DNA of 63,892 bases from NCBI GenBank assembly GCA_944322585.1, contig CALUPB010000014.1, positions 1 to 63,892 on the forward strand, read 5' to 3'. Below are positions 49,982-63,892 of this stretch, piece after piece. The notes beneath the pieces are model-generated. The model saw nothing but the letters and a program-made list of their open reading frames with translations. It was not told where the DNA came from and ran no database searches. This DNA comes from an uncultured Bacteroidales bacterium. Its GTDB lineage: Bacteria > Bacteroidota > Bacteroidia > Bacteroidales > UBA932. The first letter of the stretch is position 1; every line of letters begins with the position of its first letter. The position numbers and the translations under genes are program-made.

Positions 49982-50203
49982 CTAAAATCCAACAAGAAAA
50001 TACGGAGAATCCGCAAAAAGGTCATAATAATCACGGTACTTTCCACGTGTCAAAGCAAGTTCCATTTTCAATATGGCAATGGAATCTATATCTGCAAGGG
50101 TAATGTTCCCCGTAAACAGAACTGTATCTTTTAATGGATTTCGGCATTCTGCTTTTGAAATATCCGGCAAAATGGATTCTATGTCAGCTGTTATACCTGT
50201 CAT
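49982..50203 (-). pseudogene. AbiEii-type nucleotidyltransferase C-terminal fragment
   Basis: A 73-residue open frame. ITLADIDSIAILKMELALTRGKYRDYYDLF strongly recalls the C-terminal helix-rich part of AbiEii/AbiGii-type nucleotidyltransferase toxins (ADIDDIA-x-K then KKDFYDL). The catalytic front part of that family is missing, so this is probably a remnant. It overlaps the next upstream small frame by 4 bases (ATGA), so it may still be translated. Confidence 0.5.
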
Positions 50204-50394
50204 CGCATCCTTTCATTTAATTCACGGGTGCGTATTCTCTTCACATATGAATCCGGATTCTTTACACCGAAATAACAGCCGGCTATGAACCGGTTCAAAT
50301 CTTTGTAGCGATTGTCCTGCAAAGCCATTGTCATGGCCCAGACTTTTTTGATTTCCTTTATCGGGTTGCAGGAAATGTAACAAAAATTTATCAT
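50200..50394 (-). CDS. Small protein of unknown function
   Basis: A 64-residue frame lying 6 bases after the HigA-like gene and overlapping the next frame by 4 bases. It is rich in Tyr, Lys and Arg (YISCNPIKEIKKVWAMTMALQ, KRIRTRELNERMR). No family is recognised. Tight spacing suggests it is translated with its neighbours, or that it is the end of a decayed gene. Confidence 0.4.
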   Translation of the reverse strand: MINFCYISCNPIKEIKKVWAMTMALQDNRYKDLNRFIAGCYFGVKNPDSYVKRIRTRELNERMR

Positions 50395-50400
50395 GTCCGC

Positions 50401-50757
50401 TCAAAGTGCTGCCACAAGTTTACGGACATTTCTCAGACGTGCAGCAAATGATTTGTCATTTTTGGTCGTCTGCATATCGTAGTCGGACTGCAATCCCATA
50501 AGAATATGTGCCGGGATACCCAGCGCAGCCTCGCACAAAAGTGCGAATTTGGTATTTACAGGACGTTTGCAATTTACTATATCATTCAAGACAGTATATG
50601 AGACTCCCATATCGGCAGCAAGCTGTTTCTGGGATATATGCCTGCACTCAATCTCATCCCGCAAAAGTTCTCCAGGATGTGTCGGCTCGAACGGCTCGGT
50701 ATTGTTTGCTATCATTTTCGGGTCTATCCCTTTGATTTCAATCATGGCTTGTATCAT
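50401..50757 (-). CDS. higA: HigA-like antitoxin, Xre family
   Basis: A 118-residue DNA-binding protein. NTEPFEPTHPGELLRDEIECRHISQKQLAADMGVSYTVLNDIVNCKRPVNTKFALLCEAALGIPAHILMGLQSDYDM (read in pieces) is the classical HigA addiction-module pattern with a Cro/C1 helix-turn-helix. HigA usually represses and neutralises a HigB RNase encoded just upstream; here the region upstream holds an IS end and no toxin. ATG at 50745 is an equal start candidate. Confidence 0.82.
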   Translation of the reverse strand: MIQAMIEIKGIDPKMIANNTEPFEPTHPGELLRDEIECRHISQKQLAADMGVSYTVLNDIVNCKRPVNTKFALLCEAALGIPAHILMGLQSDYDMQTTKNDKSFAARLRNVRKLVAAL

Positions 50758-50810
50758 TTATAATGGTTGGAAATTCAATCATTGATATACTTATCGTATG
50801 ATTTTACACT

Positions 50811-51207
50811 AGTGTCCCGTTAAGAGACTGCTAAAAGTTTATAATTGTTTTATTTTTAGTTAATTATAAAGGTTTTTTCTTGTACACGACTTGAATCGTA
50901 ACTTTGGACTGACCATTTTATCTGTCAGCCTGTGTTCACAGGGAAAACCGTATTTGCTCAACTTGTGTCGCTCATACCTCTCAGAGACTTCAATATATGT
51001 GTCGCCAGATACAAGGGAGACTATCGTTCCAGGAACCTTTCCTGCTACGACCAGTTTCTCGTGATGTGCCTTGCGCAGTATGCTTCGAAGAACAGTCTTC
51101 GCGACATTGAGGCCAGCCTCATTGCAGTCGAGCATAAATTGTATCATAGCGGTATCAGTTACGCCGTTCCAAGAAACACTCTTGCCAAAGCAAATGAACA
51201 GAGGGAC
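50811..51207 (+). mobile_element. Truncated IS4-family (DUF4372) element
   Basis: The open frame from 50932 has the N-terminal DUF4372 transposase pattern: FTGKTVFAQLVSLIPLRDF, RYKGDYRSRNLSCYDQFLVM and SLRDIEASLIAVEHKLYHSG, ending NTLAKANEQRDW. After about 92 residues the match stops at the start of a repeat (51203), so the catalytic part is gone. The left end is probably near 50811, after an ACACTAGTGT palindrome (50806-50815); the exact end is inference. The first codon is GTG. Confidence 0.75.
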
Positions 51208-51440
51208 TGGCTGTTTGTTCTGCGCTCGGCTTCTGCGCAATTTAGCCTGGCGGCTACATATACTGTTCACGCCTCGGCAAGTCTTTCTCCGAAAGACCAC
51301 TCCCTCTAAACCCCCTGCACCCCCTATCAGGGGGATTTCGCGACTGCCCGTCGCGGTCCCTCCGGGACTGGCTGTTTGTTCTGCGCCCGGCTTCTGCGTA
51401 ATTTAGCCTGCGGCTACATATACGGTTCACGCCTCGGCAT
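51203..51440 (+). repeat. Two direct repeats of about 76 bases with hairpins between
   Basis: Copy 1 at 51203-51279 and copy 2 at 51364-51439 are nearly identical (they begin GGGACTGGCTGTTTGTTCTG and end CGCCTCGGCA). A third partial copy starts at 51451 (TTTGTTCTGCGCTCGGCTTC). Between copies 1 and 2 lie three stem-loops: 51281-51297, 51320-51334 (CCCCC/GGGGG) and 51340-51354 (GCGAC/GTCGC). Open frames over this part are not genes. It continues to about 51520, just before the next gene. Confidence 0.8.
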
Positions 51441-51531
51441 AACAAATAAATTTGTTCTGCGCTCGGCTTCTGCGTATATTTGTCCTTGTGGTGGGGGCGT
51501 ATACTGCCTCGCCAGGGATTTGTTGTAAATT

Positions 51532-52103
51532 ATGGAATCGTCTGAATTGAGCATTGTCACGAACCGGCTCATACTGCGGCCGTGGAGGGAATCCGATGCC
51601 GGATCATTGTACAAATATGCCAGAGACCCCGAGATAGGCCTGGCAGCAGGATGGCCGCCCCATACTTCCGTAGAAGACAGCCTGAATGTGATCCGTACGG
51701 TCTTTTCAGCCCCGGAGACCTATGCCGTGGTCCTGAAAGAGACAGGCGAGCCTGTCGGAAGTGCAGGGATAATGTCCGGAGATGGTCTGCACAGTGCGGA
51801 AATGAAGGCGGACGAGGGTGAAATCGGTTACTGGATAGGCAGGCCGTACTGGGGACTAGGCCTCATACCGGAGGCGGTGAGGTGTCTGCTGCGGCGGTGC
51901 ACCTGGGCATGTCGGCGGTCTGGTGCGGTTATTATGACGGAAATGCCAAGTCCCGCCGCGTGATGGACAAATGCGGCTTCCGCTTCCACCACACCGAGGA
52001 AGGCAAGACCTCCCCTCTCGGCGACATACGCACCGAGCATTTCATGAGAATCACGGAAGAAGAATGGCGGGAGGACAGTGACAGATATGGATACCAGGAT
52101 TGA
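51532..52103 (+). pseudogene. GNAT acetyltransferase, frameshifted
   Basis: The N-terminal part (51532 onward) reads LILRPWRESDAGSLYKYARD, EPVGSAGIM and IGYWIGRPYWGLGLIPEAVRCLL, the RimJ/RimL-type GNAT pattern with the acetyl-CoA loop. It then leaves the family frame and stops at 51963. The rest of the family pattern, VWCGYYDGNAKSRRVMDKCGF and HFMRITEEEW, continues in another frame from about 51885 to 52103. One base is missing near 51881-51900. Either a true mutation or a sequencing fault. Confidence 0.8.
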
Positions 52104-52695
52104 CGGCAGTATTTTGTCAGGAAAAATTGTCCTGCTGACAGGGGCAGGAGGCGGCATAGGACTTGAAGCCGCAAAGGCATTTGCAGAAATGGGGGCAAAA
52201 GTCCTCATCGCTGAAATTGACTGGGAAAAGGGAGAAAAGGCGGCAGAAGATATAACGGTAAAGTTCCCCGGCGCTGCGTTCTTCCTGCATACGGATTTGT
52301 CGGACGGGACGGCAGTAAGGAAATTGTGCGGAGATATACTTGCACGTTTCGGCTGTCCGGATATTATATTCAACAACGCTGCAGCCGTCATTACCGGAAA
52401 AATCGGAGAAGTGAGTATCGAAGACTGGGACTTGTGCTATGCGGTAAACCTGAAAGCCCCGGTCATGCTGACATCCTATTTCCTCGGAATGATGAAAGAA
52501 AGGGACAGCGTGAATAGCCGGACTTCTGTTCCGTACAATGTCCTTGAAAAACTGCAGCACTACTGGGAACATCAGCTGAAACTTCTTTCGGGTTTCGAAA
52601 AAGACGGGCAGAAATTCATGGAATACAGCCGGGAAATCCGTGGATGGATTGATGATATCAGGACTTTACTTGAAACAATTGATACGCGGAACTGA
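52087..52695 (+). CDS. SDR dehydrogenase chimera lacking the active site
   Basis: A 202-residue frame. Residues 1 to about 140 are a short-chain dehydrogenase: LTGAGGGIGLEAAKAFAEMGAKV (NAD loop), PDIIFNNAAAV, and DWDLCYAVNLKAPVML. From about residue 143 (SVNSRTSVPYNVLEKL) the sequence turns into an unrelated, helical end that lacks the catalytic Ser and the YxxxK pair. The protein cannot work as a normal SDR. GTG at 52078 is another start. It starts inside the end of the GNAT remnant and lies 2 bases before the next gene. Confidence 0.7.
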   Translation: MDTRIDGSILSGKIVLLTGAGGGIGLEAAKAFAEMGAKVLIAEIDWEKGEKAAEDITVKFPGAAFFLHTDLSDGTAVRKLCGDILARFGCPDIIFNNAAAVITGKIGEVSIEDWDLCYAVNLKAPVMLTSYFLGMMKERDSVNSRTSVPYNVLEKLQHYWEHQLKLLSGFEKDGQKFMEYSREIRGWIDDIRTLLETIDTRN

Positions 52696-52697
52696 GT

Positions 52698-54074
52698 ATG
52701 GAGAAGAAAACGTTGCAGACGGCAAAAGGCAGGATAGTATACTGGACATCCGGTCCGGATCAGTCTGGCGGGGATAAGGATACCGGAATCCGGATTGTCT
52801 TCCTGCCGGGATTGTCCGCTGACCGCCGGCTTTTCGAAAAACAGACGGAATATTTCAGCAAATCATGGAATTGCCTTGTCTGGGACCCTCCTGCACATGG
52901 AGAATCGAGACCGTTCAGCCTGAGTTTTACCATGGATGACCTTGTCTCGTATCTGCGGCAGATACTTGAAAAGGAAGGCGGCGGCCCTTGCGTACTTGCA
53001 GGGCAATCTTTCGGAGGATATGTCGCGCAGGCGTTCATGTCCAGGTACAAAAGCCTTGTCAGAGGATTCATCTCCATAGATTCGGCCCCGCTCGACCGCA
53101 AATATTACTCGGCGGCCGAACTGTGGCTTCTGAAACATACATACCGGCTCTATATGTGCTTTCCATGGAAACTTTTGGTAAAATCCGGATCGTTCAGCTG
53201 CGCCGAGACGGAATACGGGCGCAAACTCATGAAAACAATGATGCTGTCCTACGGGAAAAAGGAATATTGCAGGCTTGCGGCAAGAGGATATCGCCTATTG
53301 GCAGACGCACTGTCCATGAAACACGACATCCCTGCCTGTCCCGTGCTGCTCATAAGCGGGAAGAAAGACAGGCAGATTACCAATATATACAATAGAAGAT
53401 GGGCGGCAGGAGCAGGAAAATCGGTCCACTGGATCGAAGGTGCCGGACATAACTCGAACGCCGACAGGCCGGAGGAAATCAACAGGCTTATCGAAACTTT
53501 TCTGAATGAAATCACGTCTCCGGACGGGATACAAGAAAACGGCGGCCAGGAATACAGGATAAGGAGACTTGCGGAAAACGACATCCCGCAGATGCGGGAG
53601 CTGTTCCGCTCCACCGTTCTGTGCGTGAACTCAAGGGACTACACCGGTGAGGAATGTGAAGACTGGGCATCCTGCGGGGACAGTACGGAGCACTGGAAAA
53701 GGCTTATGGAAGAAAATGACTTTTTCGCGGCTATTGACAGCGGAGGGAATATCGTCGGTTTCTCGTCGATGAACACGAAAGGGCATCTGCATTCGCTTTT
53801 CGTCCACAAGGACCGGCAGGGAAAAGGCGTGGGTGCACGGCTGCTTGCGGAAGCCGAGAGGATGGCCATGGAATACAGGGCCGGGAAAATCACGGCCGAA
53901 GTCAGCATCACGGCCCGTCCGTTCTTCGAAAGACACGGCTACAAGGCGGTGAAGGAGCAGAAGGCAACGGCAAACAGGATGTACCTAACCAATTACGTTA
54001 TGGAAAGGAGTGCAGGACAAGAATATTGCCTGTCAAGGCTGACAGATTTCAAACGCAACATACAGGACCGATGA
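52698..54074 (+). CDS. Alpha/beta-hydrolase fused to a GNAT acetyltransferase
   Basis: A 458-residue two-domain protein. Residues about 28-272 are an alpha/beta hydrolase: FLPGLSADRRLF, WDPPAHGESRPF, the nucleophile elbow LAGQSFGGYVAQAF, LLISGKKDRQIT and GAGHNSNADRPEEI with the catalytic His. Residues about 285-435 are a GNAT domain: YRIRRLAENDIPQMRELF, HLHSLFVHKDRQGKGVGARLLAEAERM (acetyl-CoA loop) and FFERHGYKAVKEQK. Both domains look intact. The last 20 residues look foreign. Function unknown; it may modify and cleave the same small molecule, which is inference. Confidence 0.85.
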   Translation: MEKKTLQTAKGRIVYWTSGPDQSGGDKDTGIRIVFLPGLSADRRLFEKQTEYFSKSWNCLVWDPPAHGESRPFSLSFTMDDLVSYLRQILEKEGGGPCVLAGQSFGGYVAQAFMSRYKSLVRGFISIDSAPLDRKYYSAAELWLLKHTYRLYMCFPWKLLVKSGSFSCAETEYGRKLMKTMMLSYGKKEYCRLAARGYRLLADALSMKHDIPACPVLLISGKKDRQITNIYNRRWAAGAGKSVHWIEGAGHNSNADRPEEINRLIETFLNEITSPDGIQENGGQEYRIRRLAENDIPQMRELFRSTVLCVNSRDYTGEECEDWASCGDSTEHWKRLMEENDFFAAIDSGGNIVGFSSMNTKGHLHSLFVHKDRQGKGVGARLLAEAERMAMEYRAGKITAEVSITARPFFERHGYKAVKEQKATANRMYLTNYVMERSAGQEYCLSRLTDFKRNIQDR

Positions 54075-54232
54075 ACGCAAAGGACAATTCCAGGACATCT
54101 TTCGACCGCCAGGCGGCGGCATACGACATAGACAGGAATGGAAGCCACGCGCGGACCGTGTACAGGCCGGTACTCGATATGGACCCGGAGCAATTCTACA
54201 GGGAAGAGGCGGCATCACAGGCATCCTGCTGA
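54071..54232 (+). pseudogene. SAM-dependent methyltransferase N-terminal fragment
   Basis: A 53-residue frame overlapping the previous stop (ATGA). SRTSFDRQAAAYD followed by HARTVYRPVLDM resembles the very start of a class I methyltransferase (SFDRQAAxYD, then HAR-x-LYRP). After about 36 residues it changes into EQFYREEAASQASC, which resembles the start of the MutS-like gene, and stops. The methyltransferase core is absent. Confidence 0.5.
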
Positions 54233-54545
54233 CTGCGGCATCGCTGATCCTCTATATGGCTGCGATAAAAGCCGATGGCAGACTCGGCAAAAAAGCCGGC
54301 CGTCTCCGTGCCCGGAAGAAAACCTGCGAAAACGAGTCGGCCTGTCTCCGCGGAGACTTTACGCCATTCGGGGACGGTGCAGAGTATATCGACCTCCGGC
54401 ACGAATATTCATACGACCTCGACATCTTCGGGCCGGAATCCCTCTTCAACCGCATCAACAGGACGGTGACAAAAAAGGGAGAGGAAGCCCTGGCGGCACG
54501 GCTGGCAAACCTGCCGCCGTACGGGAAATCACCAGCAGGCGGCAT
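54202..54545 (+). pseudogene. MutS-like membrane protein fragment
   Basis: In the frame of 54256 the sequence reads GITGILLTAASLILYMAAI (membrane helix), then GRLRARKKTCENESACLRGD, DGAEYIDLRHEYSYDLDIFGPESLFNRINRTVT and GEEALAARLANLP. This is the region just before the ATPase of the short membrane-anchored MutS-like proteins of Bacteroidales. The ATPase domain is missing; the frame runs on into the CAT gene. A 14-base direct repeat (54519-54532 and 54555-54568) marks the junction. Confidence 0.65.
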
Positions 54546-54630
54546 CATTAAACAGTACGGGAAATCACAATTCTATCCGCAGTTTGACAGCGGACTTAAC
54601 TTTACTCTTATTCAACGTAAAATAAGCTAC

Positions 54631-55272
54631 ATGATGAAAGAAGTAAATCCGAAAGAAACGCCCCGTGCATACGCATTCGAGATGTGGATGGACGCGCCCA
54701 TGCCCATGGTCACGTTCTTCAAGACACTCGATGTCACCCGGCTCACCAGGCTCAGCAGACGCAGCGGCCTGAAGTTCAATATGCTGATGTGCTGGTGCAT
54801 CGGACGTGCAGCAAGCCGCATCAAAGAGTTCCATATGCTTCCCGCAGGGCGGAAACTCATACAGTACGACAGCATCGCCGTCAACACGATTGTAGCTAAT
54901 CGGGAGGGTGAAGTCAGCTCCTGCGATGTTCCATTCTCCGATAATTTGCAGCAGTTCAATGCCGATTATTTAAGATTGACGAAGCAAGTGGCCGAAAGCT
55001 GCCAAAATCATGATCTGACGGACAGTATGGTCATCGGCACTTCTGCCCTTGCACAATACGAGATAGACGGGGCGGTAGGCATGTACAGCGGTGTGTTCAA
55101 CAATCCGTTCCTGATTTGGGGCAAATACAAGCGGCGTTTGTGGAAACGGACGCTCACCGTCTCATTCCAGTTCCACCATACGCAGATGGACGGCGCACAT
55201 GCTGCCCGCTTTTTGGAAAACCTGCAGAAAAGAATCAGGGAACTCTATAAAACATTTACCGATGAACAATGA
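54631..55272 (+). CDS. CatA-like acetyltransferase (CAT family)
   Basis: A 213-residue protein with the length of a chloramphenicol acetyltransferase. Family hallmarks are PRAYAFEMWMDAPMPMVTFFKTLDVT near the start, LKFNMLMCWCIGRAAS, and the catalytic FQFHHTQMDGAHAARFLENLQ (HHxxxDG). The start at ATG 54631 is chosen because the frame upstream belongs to the MutS remnant. CAT-family proteins include true resistance enzymes and others with unknown acceptors, so resistance is not claimed. Its stop overlaps the next gene. Confidence 0.85.
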   Translation: MMKEVNPKETPRAYAFEMWMDAPMPMVTFFKTLDVTRLTRLSRRSGLKFNMLMCWCIGRAASRIKEFHMLPAGRKLIQYDSIAVNTIVANREGEVSSCDVPFSDNLQQFNADYLRLTKQVAESCQNHDLTDSMVIGTSALAQYEIDGAVGMYSGVFNNPFLIWGKYKRRLWKRTLTVSFQFHHTQMDGAHAARFLENLQKRIRELYKTFTDEQ

Positions 55273-55747
55273 AATCATATCACTTCATTCCCATCCCGAA
55301 TGGCGCATCCCAGCCGCACGGTGGTTCCAGGAGAAATGGGGAATACCCCTGGAGGAATACCTGACAAGCATTGACGAGTGCATTGAGGGAAGGGCGGCTG
55401 TCCCGCAATGGTACATTATGACAGATGGGGAGCGGATTATAGCCGGAGCCGGTGTGATAGCGAACGATTTCCATGACCGCAAGGACCTGACACCGAATGT
55501 CTGCGCCCTGTACGTCGAGCCGGAACTGCGCTGTCGCGGCATTGCCGGACAACTCTTGGCACATATCTGCAAGGATATGGCGGCGAAAGGCATCGGCACG
55601 CTTTACCTCATCACAGAACACACCTCGTTCTATGAACGCTACGGCTGGGAATACCTGTGCATGGTGCAGGGCGATGACGGGGAACAGATGCGGATGTATA
55701 TATCACAGCACATACGTTCTTCGATGAGCACTGATAAAGGACGGTGA
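55262..55747 (+). CDS. GNAT acetyltransferase, copy 1
   Basis: A 161-residue GNAT protein. WYIMTDGERIIAGAGVI, TPNVCALYVEPELRCRGIAGQLLAHICKDM (acetyl-CoA loop RCRGIAGQLL) and TEHTSFYERYGWEYL are present. It starts 11 bases before the CAT stop, so the two are probably co-translated. A second, broken copy lies at 60.2 kb. The last about 20 residues (SQHIRSSMSTDKGR) differ from the copy, and the sequence right after them matches the end of the GNAT domain of the hydrolase fusion. Confidence 0.85.
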   Translation: MNNEIISLHSHPEWRIPAARWFQEKWGIPLEEYLTSIDECIEGRAAVPQWYIMTDGERIIAGAGVIANDFHDRKDLTPNVCALYVEPELRCRGIAGQLLAHICKDMAAKGIGTLYLITEHTSFYERYGWEYLCMVQGDDGEQMRMYISQHIRSSMSTDKGR

Positions 55748-55829
55748 AGGAGCAGAAGGCGAAGCAAACAGGCTTCACCTGACAGATAACAGAATGGAGA
55801 AAGAATTGAACTACTGAAATATAAGCATT

Positions 55830-56048
55830 ATGAAACCGATACGAGTCTGCCGGAGCTGCGGCTTGCCTATGTCCGGAGAATATATGTTCGGCACTCACGG
55901 AGACGGGCACCCGTGTTCAGAATATTGCAGGGATTGCTTTCAAAAAGGATTTTTCACAGCCGCTTCACTTATGGTGAATATGCAGTGCTCTTCGAGCTTT
56001 CTGGCTATTCCCCTGCCGACTCTCCGGAATCTGTCAGGGGCGGTGTGA
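55830..56048 (+). CDS. Putative zinc-ribbon protein, truncated
   Basis: A 72-residue frame. The first about 45 residues are a zinc ribbon: CRSCGLPMSGEYMFGTHGDG and EYCRDCFQKGFFT (CxxC ... CxxC), as in the zinc-ribbon family with CGxPM and FGT. The rest (SLMVNMQCSSSFLAIP) looks unrelated, so the gene is probably cut. Confidence 0.55.
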   Translation: MKPIRVCRSCGLPMSGEYMFGTHGDGHPCSEYCRDCFQKGFFTAASLMVNMQCSSSFLAIPLPTLRNLSGAV

Positions 56049-56430
56049 CCAGAGCTGCCTTCGGTATGACATCTTGTCCAGCCCTCTCTACGCATTCTAC
56101 CGGAGCGTAGAAGGATTTGAGATCTATGGAAATGTATGGTCGCCCGCTTTCTGGCATGATGCGAAGTTTCAAATTTAGAAGGAGCCTGAAATTTTATCAA
56201 TATAAAAAACTGTCTCTAAATTTCATGAGAGGGTCCCTGATTTTATGAAAAGTATAGGGGCTGCACAGGAAGACTCATCAACAATGGAGATTTAATATTC
56301 TATAATGCCACCTCCGCTTCTTACCCATATATAGGTAGGTCAAAAGGGGGAAATCCTTACATATTGCGATTGTCTGCCGCATATACGTGAAATACCTTTG
56401 TTGCCGTTTGTATAAACTGAAACACTATCA
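56049..56430 (+). other. Gap with gene remnant and promoter
   Basis: From about 56030 to 56168 a third reading frame is free of stops and looks protein-like (YDILSSPLYAFYRSVEGF, then WSPAFWHDAKFQI, then a stop), so it may be the end of a decayed gene that was not recognised. From 56169 to 56360 the sequence is AT-rich without recognised sites. The promoter of the TonB receptor is at 56369-56400. Confidence 0.4.
56369..56400 (+). promoter_or_regulatory. Promoter of the TonB receptor operon
   Basis: ATTG at 56369-56372, spacer of 20 bases, TACCTTTG at 56393-56400, followed by a leader of 30 bases. No Fur-box-like sequence was seen around it. Confidence 0.7.
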
Positions 56431-58791
56431 ATGAAAAATCTTATTGCAGCAGCGGTGCTTGTAATTTTCAATATCATGTCAATTCATGCGCAGAACAGGA
56501 TTTACGGGACCGTTACAGACAGGAACGGAGAGCCCCTTGCAGGAGTGAACGTACAGGTGAAAGGGACCGGAAACGGCACTGTTTCGGACAAGGACGGCAA
56601 ATACTCGCTTGTCCTGAAAGAGGCTTCAGGGGGCAATACGGAAATAGTGTTTTCGTTCATTGGAATGGAGCATAAGACTGTCAGGGCAAAAGTTTCTGAC
56701 GGGGGCGAGACAAGGATTGACGCGGTTCTGGAAGAAAGTTTCGACGAGATCGCCGGAGTCGAAGTGGTCGGAATCGGCGAGCGCAAGGAAATCCGCGATG
56801 TCAAGCAGCAGGGGGTGCCGGTATCTGTCATAGACGGCAGGATGCTGTCAGGCCGCGGCACTTCATTGAGCGAGGTGCTCAACCATCAGACGGGGGTGAA
56901 ACTCCGCCAGACCGGAGGGGCAGGAAGTCAGACCAAGATAAATGTACGCGGACTGGAAGGCAACAGGGTGCAGATCTATATGGACGGATATGCCCTGAAT
57001 ACTCCTGACGGCAATTTTTCGATAAACGACATACCCCTCCAGTTCATCGACAGGATAGAGATATACAAGGGAATAGTGCCTGCTGAATTCGGAGGGGACG
57101 GGCTCGGAAGTGCAATAAATGTCGTCACGATAGATGCCGACAAGGATTTCTACGATGCCGGCTACCGCTATCAGAGTTACGGAGTCCATGACGCATCCGC
57201 AACGGTCAGACATTTTTTCAAAAGGTCCAAGGTGGCAATGACCCTTTACGCTTCAGGCATGTATGCGGAAAACGACTATACCATAGATTCTCCATACGAA
57301 GAAGGTCTGCGTATAAAACGGGACCACGACAGACTGAAAATGGTGAATTTCTCCGTCGGCCTCGACTTCATGGACAACTGGTTTGACAAGAGCGAAGTCG
57401 AACTGCTCGGCTACCTGAACAACAAACAGATACAGGGGATACAAAGTAATATACAGCATACATTTACACATGGGCAAACCTACGGGGCCAATGTCCATCT
57501 GGAAAAAACTGGGTTTTTCGCCGAAAACCTTGATATGAAATTCAACGGCGGCTATCTGTTCATCAATTCCGGACAGGTGGACACAAGTTCGGTACTGTAC
57601 GATTTCCACGGAAATGAATATGTTAACAGTTCGGGAGGAGAAGTGGGAAGCATACCTAACCTTTCGGATGACTATACGCACGATGTCAGGTACAATCTGA
57701 ACCTGAAATACCGGCTTCTGCCTGAAACGATGTCAGTCAACCTGAACAATGACTACAGAATCGTGTTCCAGAATTCAAGCGACCCGGTGGCGGGAGCATT
57801 TCTTGGCCGGGACCTGGACAATATGAAGGCCCGGGTGTCGGGGATGATCACTTCCTTTTCCGTTGAGAACAAATGGCTTAAAAAGAAACTGACCTCAGTG
57901 CTTACCGGAAGGCACTACTTCTATAAGATCAAGGGTGAAACCGTCGACCTCACGTTTCCAGGATCGGGGGACACGCCGCAGTTCACAGACCGCTCGGGGA
58001 ACAATTTCGGGTACAGCCTCGCGCTGAAATATGATCTTCCGCACCATTGGCATCTCAAGGCCGCTTTCGAGCACAACTATCGTCTTCCACGCTCGGAGGA
58101 GCTGCTCGGGGACAGGATGAACGTGATGACCAACCCATCTCTCCTCCCTGAAAACGCCAACAACCTGAATCTCGGGACATATTATGACCATTATTACGGC
58201 AACGAGTCCAGGCTCCAGATCGAGATGAACGTGTATGCCATGAAAGTAAACAACATGATGTATTCCACGGCACAGTACAATTTTCTAAAATACGCCAATC
58301 TCGGGCAGGCGCTTCTGTACGGGGCGGATGCCGAAGTGAAATGGGATATAGACCGGCACTGGTTCGTATCGCTGAACGGGACATGGCAGAAATCGCTGGA
58401 CAACTCAAAGTATGTACCCGGGACCAATACTGTCAGCCAGACTTACATGATGCAGCTTCCGCACATTCCGGTACTGTATTTCAACTGGATGGCCGATTAC
58501 CGGAAAGACAACCTTTTCGGAGGACGGGGCCAATACACGAGAATATATTACGAAGGCGGATTTACCGGGCAGTATTATTATGGATTCGAACTGAGCAAGA
58601 AGCAGGACTACAAGATACCGGCAAGCTGCATACATACGATAGGTATAGAATACGGCATACTTGACAGAAAGATAATTTTCGGAGTGGAATGTCATAACGT
58701 GCTTGATTCGCCTGAAATGACAAATTTCAACTATCCTCTTGCAGGCAGGACACTGACGGCAAAGGTAAGGTTCACAACTCTGGAATGGTAG
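56431..58791 (+). CDS. TonB-dependent outer-membrane receptor
   Basis: A 786-residue receptor. Order: signal peptide (AAAVLVIFNIMSIHAQ), carboxypeptidase-like domain about 22-105 (IYGTVTDRNGEPLAGVNVQV), plug about 120-235 (GVPVSVIDGRMLSGRGTSLSEVL, INVRGLEGNRVQIYMDGYAL, IEIYKGIVPAEFGGDGLGSAINVVT), then a beta-barrel ending RFTTLEW with a terminal aromatic. Unlike SusC there is no SusD partner; the next gene is a DUF4374 lipoprotein. That pairing resembles the XusA/XusB xenosiderophore system of Bacteroides, so iron-siderophore uptake is the best guess, not proved. Confidence 0.88.
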   Translation: MKNLIAAAVLVIFNIMSIHAQNRIYGTVTDRNGEPLAGVNVQVKGTGNGTVSDKDGKYSLVLKEASGGNTEIVFSFIGMEHKTVRAKVSDGGETRIDAVLEESFDEIAGVEVVGIGERKEIRDVKQQGVPVSVIDGRMLSGRGTSLSEVLNHQTGVKLRQTGGAGSQTKINVRGLEGNRVQIYMDGYALNTPDGNFSINDIPLQFIDRIEIYKGIVPAEFGGDGLGSAINVVTIDADKDFYDAGYRYQSYGVHDASATVRHFFKRSKVAMTLYASGMYAENDYTIDSPYEEGLRIKRDHDRLKMVNFSVGLDFMDNWFDKSEVELLGYLNNKQIQGIQSNIQHTFTHGQTYGANVHLEKTGFFAENLDMKFNGGYLFINSGQVDTSSVLYDFHGNEYVNSSGGEVGSIPNLSDDYTHDVRYNLNLKYRLLPETMSVNLNNDYRIVFQNSSDPVAGAFLGRDLDNMKARVSGMITSFSVENKWLKKKLTSVLTGRHYFYKIKGETVDLTFPGSGDTPQFTDRSGNNFGYSLALKYDLPHHWHLKAAFEHNYRLPRSEELLGDRMNVMTNPSLLPENANNLNLGTYYDHYYGNESRLQIEMNVYAMKVNNMMYSTAQYNFLKYANLGQALLYGADAEVKWDIDRHWFVSLNGTWQKSLDNSKYVPGTNTVSQTYMMQLPHIPVLYFNWMADYRKDNLFGGRGQYTRIYYEGGFTGQYYYGFELSKKQDYKIPASCIHTIGIEYGILDRKIIFGVECHNVLDSPEMTNFNYPLAGRTLTAKVRFTTLEW

Positions 58792-58814
58792 AAATATTCA
58801 CTAACAATATTGTA

Positions 58815-60038
58815 ATGAAGACAAGACATTTGATTATTGCGGCATGTGCCGTATCGGCACTGGCTGCATCCTGTGAAAAGACAGGAGGGGATGACAATGA
58901 AACGGTCCCTGGGAAGAGACCTGAAATCCTGGCTACAATCGACATGAGCCCCAAGGCATCCAACGGCTACCTGGTACCGGTCTATGACCTGGCTTCGGAC
59001 GGGGCGTCCATGGATGAAGCCTATGAAGTCAAGACATCGAATTACGTCATTACCTACAACGACTGGGCATTCGTCGTCGAAGGGACCTCAGGAGGCAACA
59101 TACGGAAATTCAATATAAACAATGACGGGACACTGTCCGAAGCGGGGCAGCTGACTGTCGATGGCGCAGGATACGGAGCGGCGCATCTTCTTGTAATCAG
59201 CGAGACCAAGGCATACGCTTCCGCAATGATCTCAAATAAGATAGTGATTTTCAACCCTTCCGACATGACGAAGACAGGAGAAATCGATCTTATGAAAGAC
59301 GGAAGCACTGAATTTGTCGACACGGACAAAGGAGCAAAAACCCCGAACCCGCTCGGGATGTTCCTCCGCGACGGGAAAGTATATGTCGGACTCGGCCAGT
59401 TCATACAGATGCCTACAACGGTACAGGGGGCATACATGCTGATAATAGACGAAAAGACCGACACTCCGGAAAAAATGATTTCGGATGACCGTCTTACTTC
59501 CGCAACGGCAATCGGAGAAGGCGGGATGTTCATTGATGAAAACAATGACCTCTACATTCCGTGCTGGGGCTCGTATGGATTCGACTCTGCTCACCACAGC
59601 GGACTTTTACGTATAAAGTCCGGAGAGGACGTGTTCGACAGTGACTACTGCTTCGACATGTCTGAAATGACCTTCGATGGTGTGAAGGGAGGAAAATTCC
59701 AGTATGTGCTTACTTATCATTATGCAGGAGACGGGGAAATCTATTTCTTCGGCTACTGTCCTGCTTTTGCATCACAAAGCGCGAATACATTCTATGAAGA
59801 CCATACGAACTACGCCATGAAAGGAGACCTATATGGGCGCACTGCTGAAGCGCTGCCTTTGCCACGGACGAATGCCATCAGCTGCGCAATAAACCATATC
59901 GGGGACGAAGTCCTGTTCGGCCTGACCACTGAAAGCAACGGCGTAGGGATTTTCAGCTATGACCGCAGGACCGGGGAATGCAGTGGTGCGCCTATAGTAA
60001 ACATGCAAGGAACGATGCTCAAGATGCAGGTGCTGTAG
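58815..60038 (+). CDS. DUF4374 lipoprotein (XusB-like)
   Basis: A 407-residue surface lipoprotein (signal IIAACAVSALAASC). The body is a beta-propeller-like DUF4374: NYVITYNDWAFVVEGTSGGN, YGAAHLLVISETKAYASAMISN, NPLGMFLRDGKVYVGLGQF and NAISCAINHIGDEVLFGLTTE. In Bacteroides the DUF4374 protein XusB captures ferric siderophore for the neighbouring TonB receptor. It starts 23 bases after the receptor. The usual third partner, a PepSY membrane protein, is absent. The start at 58815 is chosen for the signal peptide. Confidence 0.8.
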   Translation: MKTRHLIIAACAVSALAASCEKTGGDDNETVPGKRPEILATIDMSPKASNGYLVPVYDLASDGASMDEAYEVKTSNYVITYNDWAFVVEGTSGGNIRKFNINNDGTLSEAGQLTVDGAGYGAAHLLVISETKAYASAMISNKIVIFNPSDMTKTGEIDLMKDGSTEFVDTDKGAKTPNPLGMFLRDGKVYVGLGQFIQMPTTVQGAYMLIIDEKTDTPEKMISDDRLTSATAIGEGGMFIDENNDLYIPCWGSYGFDSAHHSGLLRIKSGEDVFDSDYCFDMSEMTFDGVKGGKFQYVLTYHYAGDGEIYFFGYCPAFASQSANTFYEDHTNYAMKGDLYGRTAEALPLPRTNAISCAINHIGDEVLFGLTTESNGVGIFSYDRRTGECSGAPIVNMQGTMLKMQVL

Positions 60039-60068
60039 GGCAGATCTTCCGGAACTCTACGGGAAAGG

Positions 60069-60113
60069 CGGGACAAGCGCCGGTATGGCGCGACGTCCCG
60101 TCTTTGCGTTTTA
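60069..60113 (+). terminator. Terminator of the receptor operon
   Basis: CGGGAC (60069-60074) pairs with GTCCCG (60095-60100); inside, GCGCC/GGCGC (60077-60081, 60087-60091) pairs as well. TCTTTGCGTTTT follows. Confidence 0.7.
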
Positions 60114-60225
60114 TATACCCGGCATCTTTCAGGCGGCAAGCATTGACCACCGCCTGTCTGCTCTATTTGGTGAGATGACATTAATTCCGTAGTTTTGCAG
60201 ACGGCATCACAGACACACAGCTAAA

Positions 60226-60681
60226 ATGGATGAAATCATTTCACTTCATTCCAGTCCCGGCTGGCGCATTCCGGCAGCACGGTGATTCCAGGAGAAATGG
60301 GAAATTCCTCTGGAGGAATACCTTACAAGCATTGATGAGTGCATTGAGGGAAGGGCGGCTGTCCCACAATGGTACATTATGACAGATGGAGGACGGATCA
60401 TAGCCGGAGCCGGTGTGATAGCGAATGACTTCCACGACCGCAAGGACCTGACACCGAATGTCTGCGCCCTGTACGTCGAGCCGGAACTGCGCTGTCGCGG
60501 CATTGCCGGACAACTCTTGGCACATATCTGCAAGGATATGGCGGCGAAAGGCATCGGCACGCTCTACCTCATCACGGAACACACCTCGTTCTACGAACGC
60601 TACGGCTGGAAATCCCTCTGCGTAGTTCAGGGCGATGACGGGGAACGGATGCGGATGTATAAAAAAGATACTTCGCTATGA
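60226..60681 (+). pseudogene. GNAT acetyltransferase, copy 2, with internal stop
   Basis: A near-copy of the gene at 55262. The frame starts at ATG 60226 but the codon for Trp 20 of copy 1 (TGG) is TGA here (60283-60285). The rest reads the same protein, including YVEPELRCRGIAGQLLAHIC, and ends MRMYKKDTSL. The 128 bases at 60436-60563 are identical to 55475-55602. Restart at ATG 60379 would give only a 100-residue piece. Confidence 0.85.
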
Positions 60682-60968
60682 GACAGCTGAAACTATACAT
60701 AGCCACTTCGCTCGACGGCTACATTGCCACGGCAGATGGAAGCGTGGAATGGCTGGACGCTTACCAGTCCGATGAAGAAGATTACGGCTATCATCAGTTT
60801 TATGACTCGGTGGATACGTTGCTGATGGGCGGCAACACCTACCGTGCCATCCTCGGATTCGGCTGCGACTGGCCTTACGCCGGGAAACAGACGTGGGTGC
60901 TTTCACGCTCCATTCAAGAGGCAACTTCCGGGCAAGTCGGGATTATCAGCCACGATGCTCACTTATAA
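60678..60968 (+). pseudogene. RibD-C/dihydrofolate-reductase-like protein, truncated
   Basis: A 96-residue frame overlapping the previous stop by an ATGA. LKLYIATSLDGYIATADGSVEWL, DTLLMGGNTYRAI and WVLSRS are the typical front half of the RibD C-terminal/DHFR-like family (normally about 175 residues). The second half with the GGG substrate/NADPH motif is missing; the frame ends SHDAHL. Confidence 0.75.
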
Positions 60969-61021
60969 ATTGTGCTGACAAACCGCTTGCCCGCATCGAA
61001 ATTTCTCTACTCCGCTCGGAC

Positions 61022-62752
61022 TCATAGTTTCCAACCGGAAATGCTTTCCTGTATTTCCCATAAATGAGCGTAAAGCCCTTGTTTCCGGAGCAGTTCATCG
61101 TGCGTGCCTTCTTCCTTTATCCGTCCGTTGTCCAAGACGATTATCCGGTCGGCATCCTTGATTGTTTTGAGCCTGTGGGCAATGGCAATGACGGTGCGTC
61201 CTTTAATCAAAGAGTCGATGGCTTTCTGCACCTCCACTTCATTTTCTGGGTCGAGCGAAGCGGTAGCTTCGTCCAGCAGGATGACTTGTGCGTCTTTCAG
61301 CATGGCACGGGCAATGGATATGCGCTGCTTTTCTCCTCCTGAAAGGGTACAACCTCCTTCGCCCACCATCGTGTCGTACCCTTGCGGCAAGCGCATGATA
61401 AAATCATGGCAACAGGCTTTCCTGGCTGCGGCGATGATTTCCTCGTCTGTCGCGTCTGTCTTACCGAAACGGATGTTGTTGCGTATCGTGTCCTGAAACA
61501 GATAGACATCCTGAAATACCATGGAGATATGGCTCATCAGGCTTTCGGGATTTATCTCGTTCATCGGAACACCATTGAAATAAATATGCCCTTTCTGCGG
61601 GTCATAGAAGCGGGCGCAAAGTTTCATCAGCGTACTTTTTCCGCTTCCCGACGGGCCGACAAGAGCTGTCAGTGAGTTGTTGGGAAGCGTTACGGTTACA
61701 TCGTGCAGCACTTCTTTATCTTGATAAGCGAACGATACGTGTTCAAACCGAATGTCACCTGCCGCCGGAGATTGCCTTTCCCCTTTCATTTCCGGCTCAT
61801 TCATCAAGGTAAGGATACGCCCTCCGGCAATGGAAAAGTACCGGAACTCGGTGAAATTGGTCAGGGCGGAAGTCAGCGGGTCGAACACACGCGAGCCGAC
61901 CACGAGGAACAGCACGAATACAAGGATGGAAAGTTCTCCTCCCAACAGAAGATAAGTTCCGCACAGCACCATCAGAGTCAGTCCGGCACGTACCAATGTA
62001 ATGCTCAACAAGACGAAGGGGCCTAACAGGGCTTCCTGACGGATGCAGGCACGGCGAAGCTGGGCAAAAGCATCGCGCAACCGGACGAAACGGTCACCCA
62101 ACAGGTTGTAGGCTTTCATCACGCGGATGCCCTGCAAGTATTCCTCCAACCGGTTTCCTGCATTTATCTTCGCTTGGATTTGCCTGCCGCTCAACTTCCG
62201 CTGCACACCGGTACTTGCCCACAGGACAAGCATGGCAAGCGGCAAGGCGGCAAACATGCAGACCGCCATCCTCCAGTCTATCCATATCAATGAGGCAAAA
62301 GCCAGTACGGGCATTACCACTGCGCCCATCAGTTGGGGCAGGTGGTGCGAGATGCCGGTTTCTGCCATCATGAAGTCCGTAATCAGCATGGAGGACAAAT
62401 CACCGGGGTCGCGCCTTGATAGGAAACCCAATGAAAGTTTCCGCAGATGTTCTGCCAGCGACAAACGCCCGGAAGCACTCATTTCGTATGCTCCCCTGAA
62501 ATTGGCTCGGTAAGATGCCCGTTCCGCCAAAGCCATGACCAGCATATAAGCAGCCATAACGCCGAATATCCACCACAAGCGGGTCGTGTCGAGCGGCTGT
62601 CCGCTTCCGTCAAATGCATTGAAGATGATGCGTATCGCTTCTATGGAAAGGCAAAACGGCACGATATTCACCAAATTGGCAAGCATGGTGTAACCCACAG
62701 GCTTGTAAAGCCGTTCGGTATGTCCTATTGTAATGTTTTTGATTGCATTCAT
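61022..62752 (-). CDS. ABC half-transporter (membrane plus ATPase domains)
   Basis: A 576-residue half-transporter. Six membrane helices lie in the first about 310 residues (MLANLVNIVPFCLSIEAI, VMAAYMLVMALAE, MGAVVMPVLAFASLIWI and others). The ATPase has Walker A LVGPSGSGKSTLMKLCARF, the signature TLSGGEKQRISIARAML, Walker B VILLDEATASLDPENE and the switch His in AIAHRLKTI. It is encoded 15 bases after a similar half-transporter, so the two most likely form a heterodimer. Export-type fold; some members (YbtPQ/IrtAB) import siderophores, an attractive but unproved role next to the receptor operon. Confidence 0.9.
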   Translation of the reverse strand: MNAIKNITIGHTERLYKPVGYTMLANLVNIVPFCLSIEAIRIIFNAFDGSGQPLDTTRLWWIFGVMAAYMLVMALAERASYRANFRGAYEMSASGRLSLAEHLRKLSLGFLSRRDPGDLSSMLITDFMMAETGISHHLPQLMGAVVMPVLAFASLIWIDWRMAVCMFAALPLAMLVLWASTGVQRKLSGRQIQAKINAGNRLEEYLQGIRVMKAYNLLGDRFVRLRDAFAQLRRACIRQEALLGPFVLLSITLVRAGLTLMVLCGTYLLLGGELSILVFVLFLVVGSRVFDPLTSALTNFTEFRYFSIAGGRILTLMNEPEMKGERQSPAAGDIRFEHVSFAYQDKEVLHDVTVTLPNNSLTALVGPSGSGKSTLMKLCARFYDPQKGHIYFNGVPMNEINPESLMSHISMVFQDVYLFQDTIRNNIRFGKTDATDEEIIAAARKACCHDFIMRLPQGYDTMVGEGGCTLSGGEKQRISIARAMLKDAQVILLDEATASLDPENEVEVQKAIDSLIKGRTVIAIAHRLKTIKDADRIIVLDNGRIKEEGTHDELLRKQGLYAHLWEIQESISGWKL

Positions 62753-62767
62753 ATCTTGTTTTCCTTT

Positions 62768-63892
62768 TTAGTTTTTGTTCAATGTCCAATGGTATGCGCT
62801 CGTATAGGCATCCCACATATTTTTATATATGCCCTCGGTCACGGACAGGTGTTCATGCTTTCCGCACTGCACGATGCGCCCTTCTTTCAAAACGACAATC
62901 TGATGAGCGGAAATGACGGACGAAAGGCGATGAGCAATCACGATGACCGTCTTGTCCTTTATCAGCGACTGTAAAGCCATCTGCATTTTATGCTCGTTTT
63001 CAGGGTCGGCGAAAGCTGTCGCTTCGTCCAGTACCAGTATCGGCGCATTCTTCAATATGGCACGGGCCACACATATCCGTTGGGCTTCGCCGCCGGACAA
63101 GAACACCCCTTTGTCGCCTATACGTGTTTCATAACCTTGCGGCAGACGCTCTATGAAGTCGTGGCATTGGGCAGCTTTCGCGGCGGCTATCACCTTTTCT
63201 TTCGTAGCATCAGGAGAGCCGACAGCAATGTTCTCATAAAGCGTGTCGTAGAAAAGAAAAGTGTCTTGAAACACGAATGAAACCATGTCCATCAGCTTTG
63301 CAGTAGCTATCTGACGTATATCCACACCACCTATGCAGATTTCCCCTTGCTCCACATCCCAGAACCGTGGTATCAGGTTGGCAACCGTTGATTTGCCGCT
63401 TCCCGACGGGCCGACAAGGGCGGTTATCTTTCCTTGTGGCGCGACAAAGCTGACATCGCGCAGGGCTTCCGTCCGTGTTCCCTGTTCCGTGTTTTCGTAG
63501 GAAAATGACACCTGCCGGAACTCTACATCATAAGCCACAGGCACTTGCGGATGTTCCGGCTCCGGCACAGGCCTCTTTTCCAATATGCGGTCAATACGGT
63601 TTACCCCTTCGTTGATGTCGCGCGTATTCCCTCCTAAAAAAGTCAGTTTGTAAACGGGCGAAGCCATACCCGGTCCCATGATGATAAAAAACAGCCACAC
63701 CACAGCCAATGAGAGTGATTGCGGACTGGCTTGCAACAGCAGAATACCCATAGGAAGAATAAACGTAACCATCGAATTAAGCAAGACGGTAAATGCTATC
63801 ATACCGTTCTGATATGTGTCACAGCATTTCAAGGCGAATGTCTTGTACGCCTGAATCTCGGCATTGAACTGACGGAACGAACGGACGCTTTG
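62768..63892 (-). CDS. ABC half-transporter, N-terminus beyond the window
   Basis: The frame is open to the right edge; the visible 374 residues hold the last membrane helices (MVTFILPMGILLLQ, LSLAVVWLFFIIMG) and the ATPase: Walker A LVGPSGSGKSTVANLIPRF, signature FLSGGEAQRICVARAIL, Walker B ILVLDEATAFADPENE, switch His in VIAHRLSSV. A TTG at 63832 is not a real start. It is the first partner of the heterodimer. Confidence 0.9.
   Translation of the reverse strand, partial: QSVRSFRQFNAEIQAYKTFALKCCDTYQNGMIAFTVLLNSMVTFILPMGILLLQASPQSLSLAVVWLFFIIMGPGMASPVYKLTFLGGNTRDINEGVNRIDRILEKRPVPEPEHPQVPVAYDVEFRQVSFSYENTEQGTRTEALRDVSFVAPQGKITALVGPSGSGKSTVANLIPRFWDVEQGEICIGGVDIRQIATAKLMDMVSFVFQDTFLFYDTLYENIAVGSPDATKEKVIAAAKAAQCHDFIERLPQGYETRIGDKGVFLSGGEAQRICVARAILKNAPILVLDEATAFADPENEHKMQMALQSLIKDKTVIVIAHRLSSVISAHQIVVLKEGRIVQCGKHEHLSVTEGIYKNMWDAYTSAYHWTLNKN

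Follow-up and report, generated by a model that had tools for sequence, protein, structure and literature searches.

The window analysed here is the complete 63,892-base contig CALUPB010000014.1 from an uncultured Bacteroidales bacterium, one of the 33 contigs of a 2.87-Mb draft genome (assembly GCA_944322585.1). Near its right end, two GNAT-family acetyltransferase genes, copy A (55262–55747) and copy B (60226–60681), flank a unit encoding a TonB-dependent receptor and a surface lipoprotein that resemble XusA and XusB (all coordinates refer to the plus strand unless noted otherwise). A first-pass annotation had regarded the two GNAT copies as direct repeats through which the unit was brought in and could be deleted or duplicated. 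Based on our comparisons, the unit probably lies within a horizontally assembled island that is decaying through short-homology or illegitimate deletions, and the GNAT repeat would be a leftover rather than the vehicle. According to this reading, the sequence from about 50.9 kb to the contig end would represent an accessory island of horizontally acquired genes that is now decaying. The XusAB-like unit and the downstream GNAT copy B, followed by DHFR-like and ABC exporter genes, would form one exchanged module, the same order also occurring in the related genome G709. Copy A would be a more distant paralog on the other side. Immediately to its left a CAT-like gene ends, and on its right it continues, as a fusion, into the tail of another GNAT gene; its position is observed directly, the route to it is one that we infer. 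The two copies would have been partly homogenised by a gene-conversion tract of 128 nt, as suggested by the statistics below. Comparison with relatives, used in place of the parental sequences, shows deletions that shorten adjoining genes and join them to one another, two or more of these deletions lying at short homologies of 7–10 nt.

The distribution of the segment was determined by searching 400 genomes of the genus, one per species, at the DNA level; only two candidates were scored per genome, so that the counts are lower bounds. The region 52600–61020 was matched at E≤1e-8 in at least 58 of these genomes, and the receptor unit occurred at ≥93% identity in at least four, the window's own, G709, G068 and G703, the last of which contains only the final part of the unit at a contig end. 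A piece of the unit was also present in G569 (85% identity). The segment common to the window and G068 (56234–60081, 93.5% identity) spans a 3,855-nt contig except for a single base, and that common to the window and G709 (55911–60397, 93.7% identity) includes the start of GNAT copy B. Between G709 and G068 the units were 99.7% identical, with a synonymous divergence (dS) of the receptor gene of 0.002 as determined by one method, whereas the Rnf-region DNA of the same pair was only 84% identical. The unit of the window was 93.5% identical to both. Core DNA stood at 74–76% in the main matches at Rnf and uvrA, and the dnaK-side match of G068 went up to 82%. The part present in G703 was 96.6% identical to the window, with core DNA at 82% and 74% in the two longest matches. 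As unit identities of 93.5–99.7% thus stand against 74–84% for core DNA in the longest matches, horizontal transfer is supported, and judged by these sequences the receptor unit has apparently passed from species to species within the genus. The suggestion that the segment contains what looks like transferred cargo is therefore supported. Two of the contigs concerned, C46 of G068 (3.9 kb) and C78 of G709 (5.2 kb), are short and may be misbinned; the contig of the window carries core genes.

The arrangement in G709 indicates which of the two GNAT copies travels with the unit. The G709 contig carries, in order, a zinc ribbon piece, a UmuC-like piece, the receptor and lipoprotein genes, a NUDIX stub, a promoter, the first part of a GNAT gene, the tail of the DHFR-like gene and the ABC exporter. 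Over 159 nt, the GNAT sequence of G709 differs from copy B at 3 positions and from copy A at 12, while A and B differ at 15; copy B is thus closer to it than copy A, at a nominal p of 0.03 (Fisher test, with overlapping comparisons treated as independent). Three junctions are common to the window and G709, namely the deletion in the UmuC-like piece, the border between this piece and the unit, and the border between the NUDIX stub and GNAT B. With up to 3 mismatches allowed, the junctions around copy A (CAT/GNAT A, GNAT A/other GNAT and other-GNAT tail/zinc ribbon) were found in no other fetched locus, and the same was true for the DHFR deletion, the hydrolase deletion and both junctions to the left of the CAT-like gene. 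In G703, a NUDIX gene and, beyond it, other genes come after the unit, and no A/B-type GNAT adjoins the end of the unit, indicating that the unit also occurs without such a neighbour; pieces of the dehydrogenase and hydrolase genes and of a GNAT of the type located at 51532 lie at the far end of that contig. Repeat-mediated exchange as the vehicle of the cargo is not supported by these arrangements, since the GNAT gene is already tied to the unit in G709 and a NUDIX gene takes its place in G703.

Genomes that lack the segment were informative as well. In G645 (a 130.8-kb contig), the start of the gene that comes after the hydrolase-GNAT fusion leads into an internal part of the DHFR-like gene, and a CAT piece is located elsewhere, upstream. 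In G738 (a 17.9-kb contig), about 220 nt, in part a longer tail of the DHFR-like gene, separate a truncated hydrolase gene from the ABC exporter. Neither genome contains CAT, GNAT A, receptor or GNAT B between the flanking genes. The endpoints in G645, in G738 and of the G709 deletion, which runs from inside the GNAT into the DHFR-like gene, are all different, and none of them corresponds to a GNAT-to-GNAT crossover. The DHFR deletion of the window lies at a short homology of about 10 nt with one mismatch, and the GNAT-DHFR deletion of G709 at one of 7 nt; both homologies were read by eye, with relatives standing in for the parental sequences. Bacterial accessory islands can decay by short-homology deletion, and the present island resembles such decaying islands in its truncated and fused genes and in endpoints that differ between related species. 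Among the matches listed for the 400 genomes, neither a single GNAT between CAT and DHFR nor tandem copies were observed. Deletion or duplication by recombination between the copies, as had been proposed, is possible in principle, but no such form was seen among these matches; the forms that lack the segment have their endpoints in other genes and not in GNAT copies.

Base-by-base alignment of the two GNAT genes identified a direct repeat of 432 nt on the same strand (55269–55700 and 60230–60661) with 92.6% identity and a spacing of 4,961 nt. Sequence likeness is confined to the gene, and the flanks are unrelated. Copy A is an open frame in which GNAT homology stops at position 55700; its last 15 codons are foreign, being the 3' end of another GNAT gene with similarity to 53907–54004. 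It is preceded by a leader (55241–55261) that overlaps the end of the CAT-like gene and is homologous to GNAT leaders in two relatives, L009 and L010, as shown by alignment and by blastn matches beginning at 55241. Copy B had been described as broken, and an in-frame stop at 60283–60285 bears this out. The two copies are the only matches to the GNAT protein in the genome at E≤0.001. Their differences are concentrated at third codon positions, with a nonsynonymous divergence (dN) of about 0.03 and a dS of 0.20–0.26 (two methods), a dS at odds with a recent duplication; to call them near-identical was an overstatement.

The two copies do share, as had been noted, 128 identical bases (55475–55602 and 60436–60563), the longest identical run between them. 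A and B differ at 22 of 204 sites before this tract, at none of the 128 sites inside it and at 10 of 97 sites after it (sites 55271–55699). The chance of such a run was P = 1.6e-4 when mismatches were shuffled within codon positions, and P = 8e-5 when sites were weighted by their variability among L009, L010 and L011. The simplest reading of these statistics is that the tract is probably a short gene-conversion patch.

The segment between the copies had been described as a complete transcription unit, and our analysis agrees with this description: a promoter pattern is followed by a receptor gene, a lipoprotein gene and a plausible terminator hairpin. A scan for TTG-N17..22-TAnnTTTG, which we take to be the Bacteroidota promoter consensus, found two matches on the plus strand of 54201–61100 (0.08 expected). 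One, at 56370–56400, precedes the receptor unit and also occurs in L105 and L182, in line with the promoter claimed at 56369; the other, at 60167–60197, precedes GNAT copy B and is identical in L182. The terminator claimed at 60069 is plausible in view of a hairpin at 60064–60105 with a fold z of −2.79, although a simple terminator scan did not list it. From the lipoprotein gene to this hairpin there is no further gene, and the operon contains no XusC (PepSY) gene (the rest of the genome was not searched for PepSY).

The receptor gene (56431–58791) encodes a XusA-like TonB-dependent receptor with an N-terminal carboxypeptidase-like domain, as assigned by Pfam, which matches XusA (PDB 9GBC chain A) with an E value of 2.8e-50 over residues 33–781. 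The second gene (58818–60038) encodes a XusB-like surface lipoprotein, predicted to form a beta-propeller. The lipoprotein itself has no direct match in Pfam (0 families) or NCBIfam. However, a profile built from eight relatives matches XusB (9hqe) at 1.4e-15, and the top six fold-search matches of an AlphaFold2 model (mean pLDDT 73) are all XusB chains, including 9hqk and 9hqe. Among five distant relatives of the lipoprotein that were scanned, one (L112, itself a member of the profile) matches the DUF4374 family in Pfam. The DUF4374 label given to this gene therefore holds at the level of profile and fold, but not as a direct Pfam match. 9GBC represents the XusAB complex of B. thetaiotaomicron, and XusABC is a xenosiderophore system (PMC13142918). 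This system resembles the unit in combining a receptor with a carboxypeptidase-like N-terminus with an adjacent beta-propeller lipoprotein. The unit differs from XusABC in lacking an operon-borne XusC (PepSY) gene and in a lipoprotein without a direct DUF4374 match in Pfam; the lipoprotein is also distant from XusB of B. fragilis (16–17% identity in the fold search). Judged by family membership, the pair most likely serves to bind and take up ferric siderophores of foreign origin.

At E≤0.001, the GNAT was matched in 6 of 151 genomes of the genus and in 16 of 393 genomes of the order, the own genome being included in both counts. Among the best 80 of 590 relatives, the closest protein matches were L009 (92%) and L010 (86%), followed by matches at 75% and lower, most of them in Clostridia according to the record titles. 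From this distribution we infer that the GNAT itself is an acquired gene. An origin of the GNAT from phages or plasmids was rejected, as only matches below 60% identity were obtained in 7 phage and 28 plasmid records and none in viral contigs. A plasmid origin of the segment was likewise rejected, the 6.8-kb DNA matching one plasmid record, by the CAT-like gene only. Three genomes of the genus (G598, G671 and G784) each carry a single distant GNAT (68–71% DNA and 54–58% protein identity), and no match to CAT, receptor, DHFR or ABC genes at E≤1e-5 was present within 7–13 kb around it. In two of these, G598 and G671 (L226 6165–6785 and L227 715–1391), the distant relative of copy A is directly followed by a GNAT piece of the 51532 type; these joins are another combination of the same gene pool.

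Several observations weigh against the proposed decay of a horizontally assembled island. The genomes with the unit are draft assemblies in which many contigs break off within the island or close to it. The contig of G709 stops at window position 55911, so that a GNAT A may lie beyond it; no second GNAT match was listed for G709, for which two candidates were scored. The junction between the zinc ribbon and the UmuC-like piece was matched nowhere within 3 mismatches, although a BLAST alignment with G709 spans it. The G645 junction includes a few bases of unknown origin, the hydrolase deletion junction displays almost no short homology, and the segment may have been absent from G645 and G738 from the start rather than lost. 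Sites at which A and B agree against L009 and L010 number 11 before the tract, 2 in it and 1 after it and are thus not concentrated there, so that the case for conversion is made by the missing A-B differences alone. Finally, L009, a draft genome of an uncultured Paraprevotella, joins a copy-A-like leader and a copy-B-like right flank around one GNAT. Its leader, GNAT, DHFR and ABC genes lie in one piece, with the gene order of copy B and its right flank at 89–91% DNA identity; unlike the window, it has an uninterrupted GNAT and a full-length DHFR-like gene and no match to the receptor unit within 9.6 kb.

The arrangement in L009 is what one would expect of a locus that has yet to undergo a single-crossover insertion, or of one in which a deletion between A and B has taken place. 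Such an insertion was kept as the main rival. A circle carrying a GNAT and the receptor unit would have integrated, in a Campbell-type event, into a resident locus with the order leader-GNAT-DHFR-ABC, so that copy A would have received the leader of that locus and copy B its tail. The intact locus in L009, with a leader like that of copy A and a right flank like that of copy B, agrees with this scenario, and the 128-nt identical tract would offer a crossover site. However, the switch in similarity that it predicts is absent: A/B sites compared to L009 number 13/8 before the tract and 6/4 after it (a hand count within the GNAT homology). Moreover, the B-type GNAT is tied to the unit, the DHFR tail and the ABC exporter in G709 too, and neither a free nor a single-copy form was found among the matches listed for the 400 genomes (a lower bound). 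We consider a single-crossover insertion unlikely. We regard it as very unlikely that assembly produced the pattern, the 128-nt tract having led the assembler to copy, collapse or mis-phase GNAT copies. This would be in line with a fragmented draft whose contig ends beside the island, and with contigs of several other genomes ending there as well, but G709 independently carries the receptor unit, GNAT and DHFR-ABC on one contig, and mismatches between the copies lie to either side of the tract, while their flanks are different. A recent tandem duplication of the GNAT in its own genome, with the receptor unit later inserted between the two, is highly improbable: the genome has just two copies on the same strand, and A and B agree at some sites against L009 and L010, but their synonymous divergence is considerable, copy B is closer to the GNAT of G709 than to copy A, and no flanking sequence beyond the gene is common to both. 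Least probable of all is that gene conversion maintains the likeness of the GNAT genes and that they work as an active crossover point, releasing or accepting a 4,961-bp circle with the iron-piracy unit; this acetyltransferase gene family would then provide cargo in gut Bacteroidales with a common docking site.

The proposed decaying island contains numerous further genes and remnants. Its left part, near uvrA, begins with a DUF4372 fragment (50932–51309, Pfam 8e-26), presumably the N-terminus of a transposase; a related broken gene is located near uvrA in G100 (L173). The right flanks of uvrA in eight relatives, several of them ending at contig ends, yielded only this transposase piece as a notable match (37% amino acid identity, G100), and other island proteins gave weak ABC or GNAT matches of 20–28% there. 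The end of the contig at 63,892 precluded the definition of an empty site. At 51203–51486, an element of about 76 nt is repeated; a 123-nt piece has 38 matches in its own genome, including itself, and many in G068 and G100. This element is an uncharacterised dispersed repeat. An integron-cassette array, suggested by the GNAT, CAT-like, DHFR-like and helix-turn-helix (HTH) cargo and by the repeat at 51.4 kb, was set aside, since a number of the genes touch or overlap one another with almost no intergenic sequence and no sites in between, and copies of the repeat are scattered across the genome (no dedicated search for attC or integrase was made). No integrase or complete transposase was recognised among the open reading frames of the island in the window, to which no dedicated search was applied, and an Rfam search of 50047–63892 at gathering thresholds gave no match.

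Between the repeat element and copy A, several genes are truncated or fused. The N-terminal part of a short-chain dehydrogenase (52078–52695) ends in an unrelated last third, and pieces of it with other joins occur in G709, G703, G738 and G645. The subsequent gene (52698–54074, Pfam) encodes an alpha/beta hydrolase-GNAT fusion with relatives in L164 and L213. The fusion lacks a third domain that occurs in G068 and G645, the junction lying at 54044/54046. The CAT-like gene (54256–55272) encodes a CatA-like O-acetyltransferase (family 2; its match to NCBIfam NF040637, at 1e-109, falls short of the cut-off for chloramphenicol CatA). A stretch of about 100 codons (54256–54555) that is fused in frame to its front has no Pfam match; part of this stretch matches G634 at 76%, and by eye we take the stretch to resemble a MutS fragment. 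The genome carries a second, shortened CAT-like gene on contig C1 (L222 3072–4028), followed by a GNAT of the 51532 type, and a CAT gene or piece followed by such a GNAT is also present in G029, G767 and G645. In G068 (L166 5466–6200), a HigB-like toxin gene and an HTH gene lie beside a CAT-like gene; in the window only an HTH gene was seen (50401–50757).

Remnants also occur on either side of the unit. The other GNAT gene whose tail is fused to copy A persists as a 3' end at 55702–55803, related to 53907–54004 as direct repeats. It is followed by the 5' part of a zinc-ribbon gene (55830–55970; Pfam PF12674, 9.6e-11 for 55830–55985), which has a longer frame in G738 (L212), and by a gene fragment with an internal deletion on the minus strand (55971–56166). 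In L225, a continuous frame extends across both pieces of this fragment, which we take to be Y-family polymerase/UmuC-like, a name given by eye and not from a family search. The 3' stub of a NUDIX gene (60110–60161, minus strand) is convergent with the unit and corresponds to a longer gene in G703. Downstream of copy B, the RibD_C/DHFR-like gene (60678–60968; Pfam 3.8e-5, just below the cut-off) has an internal deletion near 60952 and is full-length in L009 (8456–8986). A pair of ABC exporter genes on the minus strand (61022–63832) extends close to the contig end, and the first of the pair forms the right flank also in L009, L182, L211 and L213.

Taken together, the find is fairly ordinary. 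The GNAT repeat matters little unless strain data show recombination there. The fragments of this accessory island can be traced junction by junction, and the island includes a XusAB-like siderophore-piracy unit that is apparently moving between species of one genus, being nearly identical in a pair of species whose Rnf-region DNA has clearly diverged.

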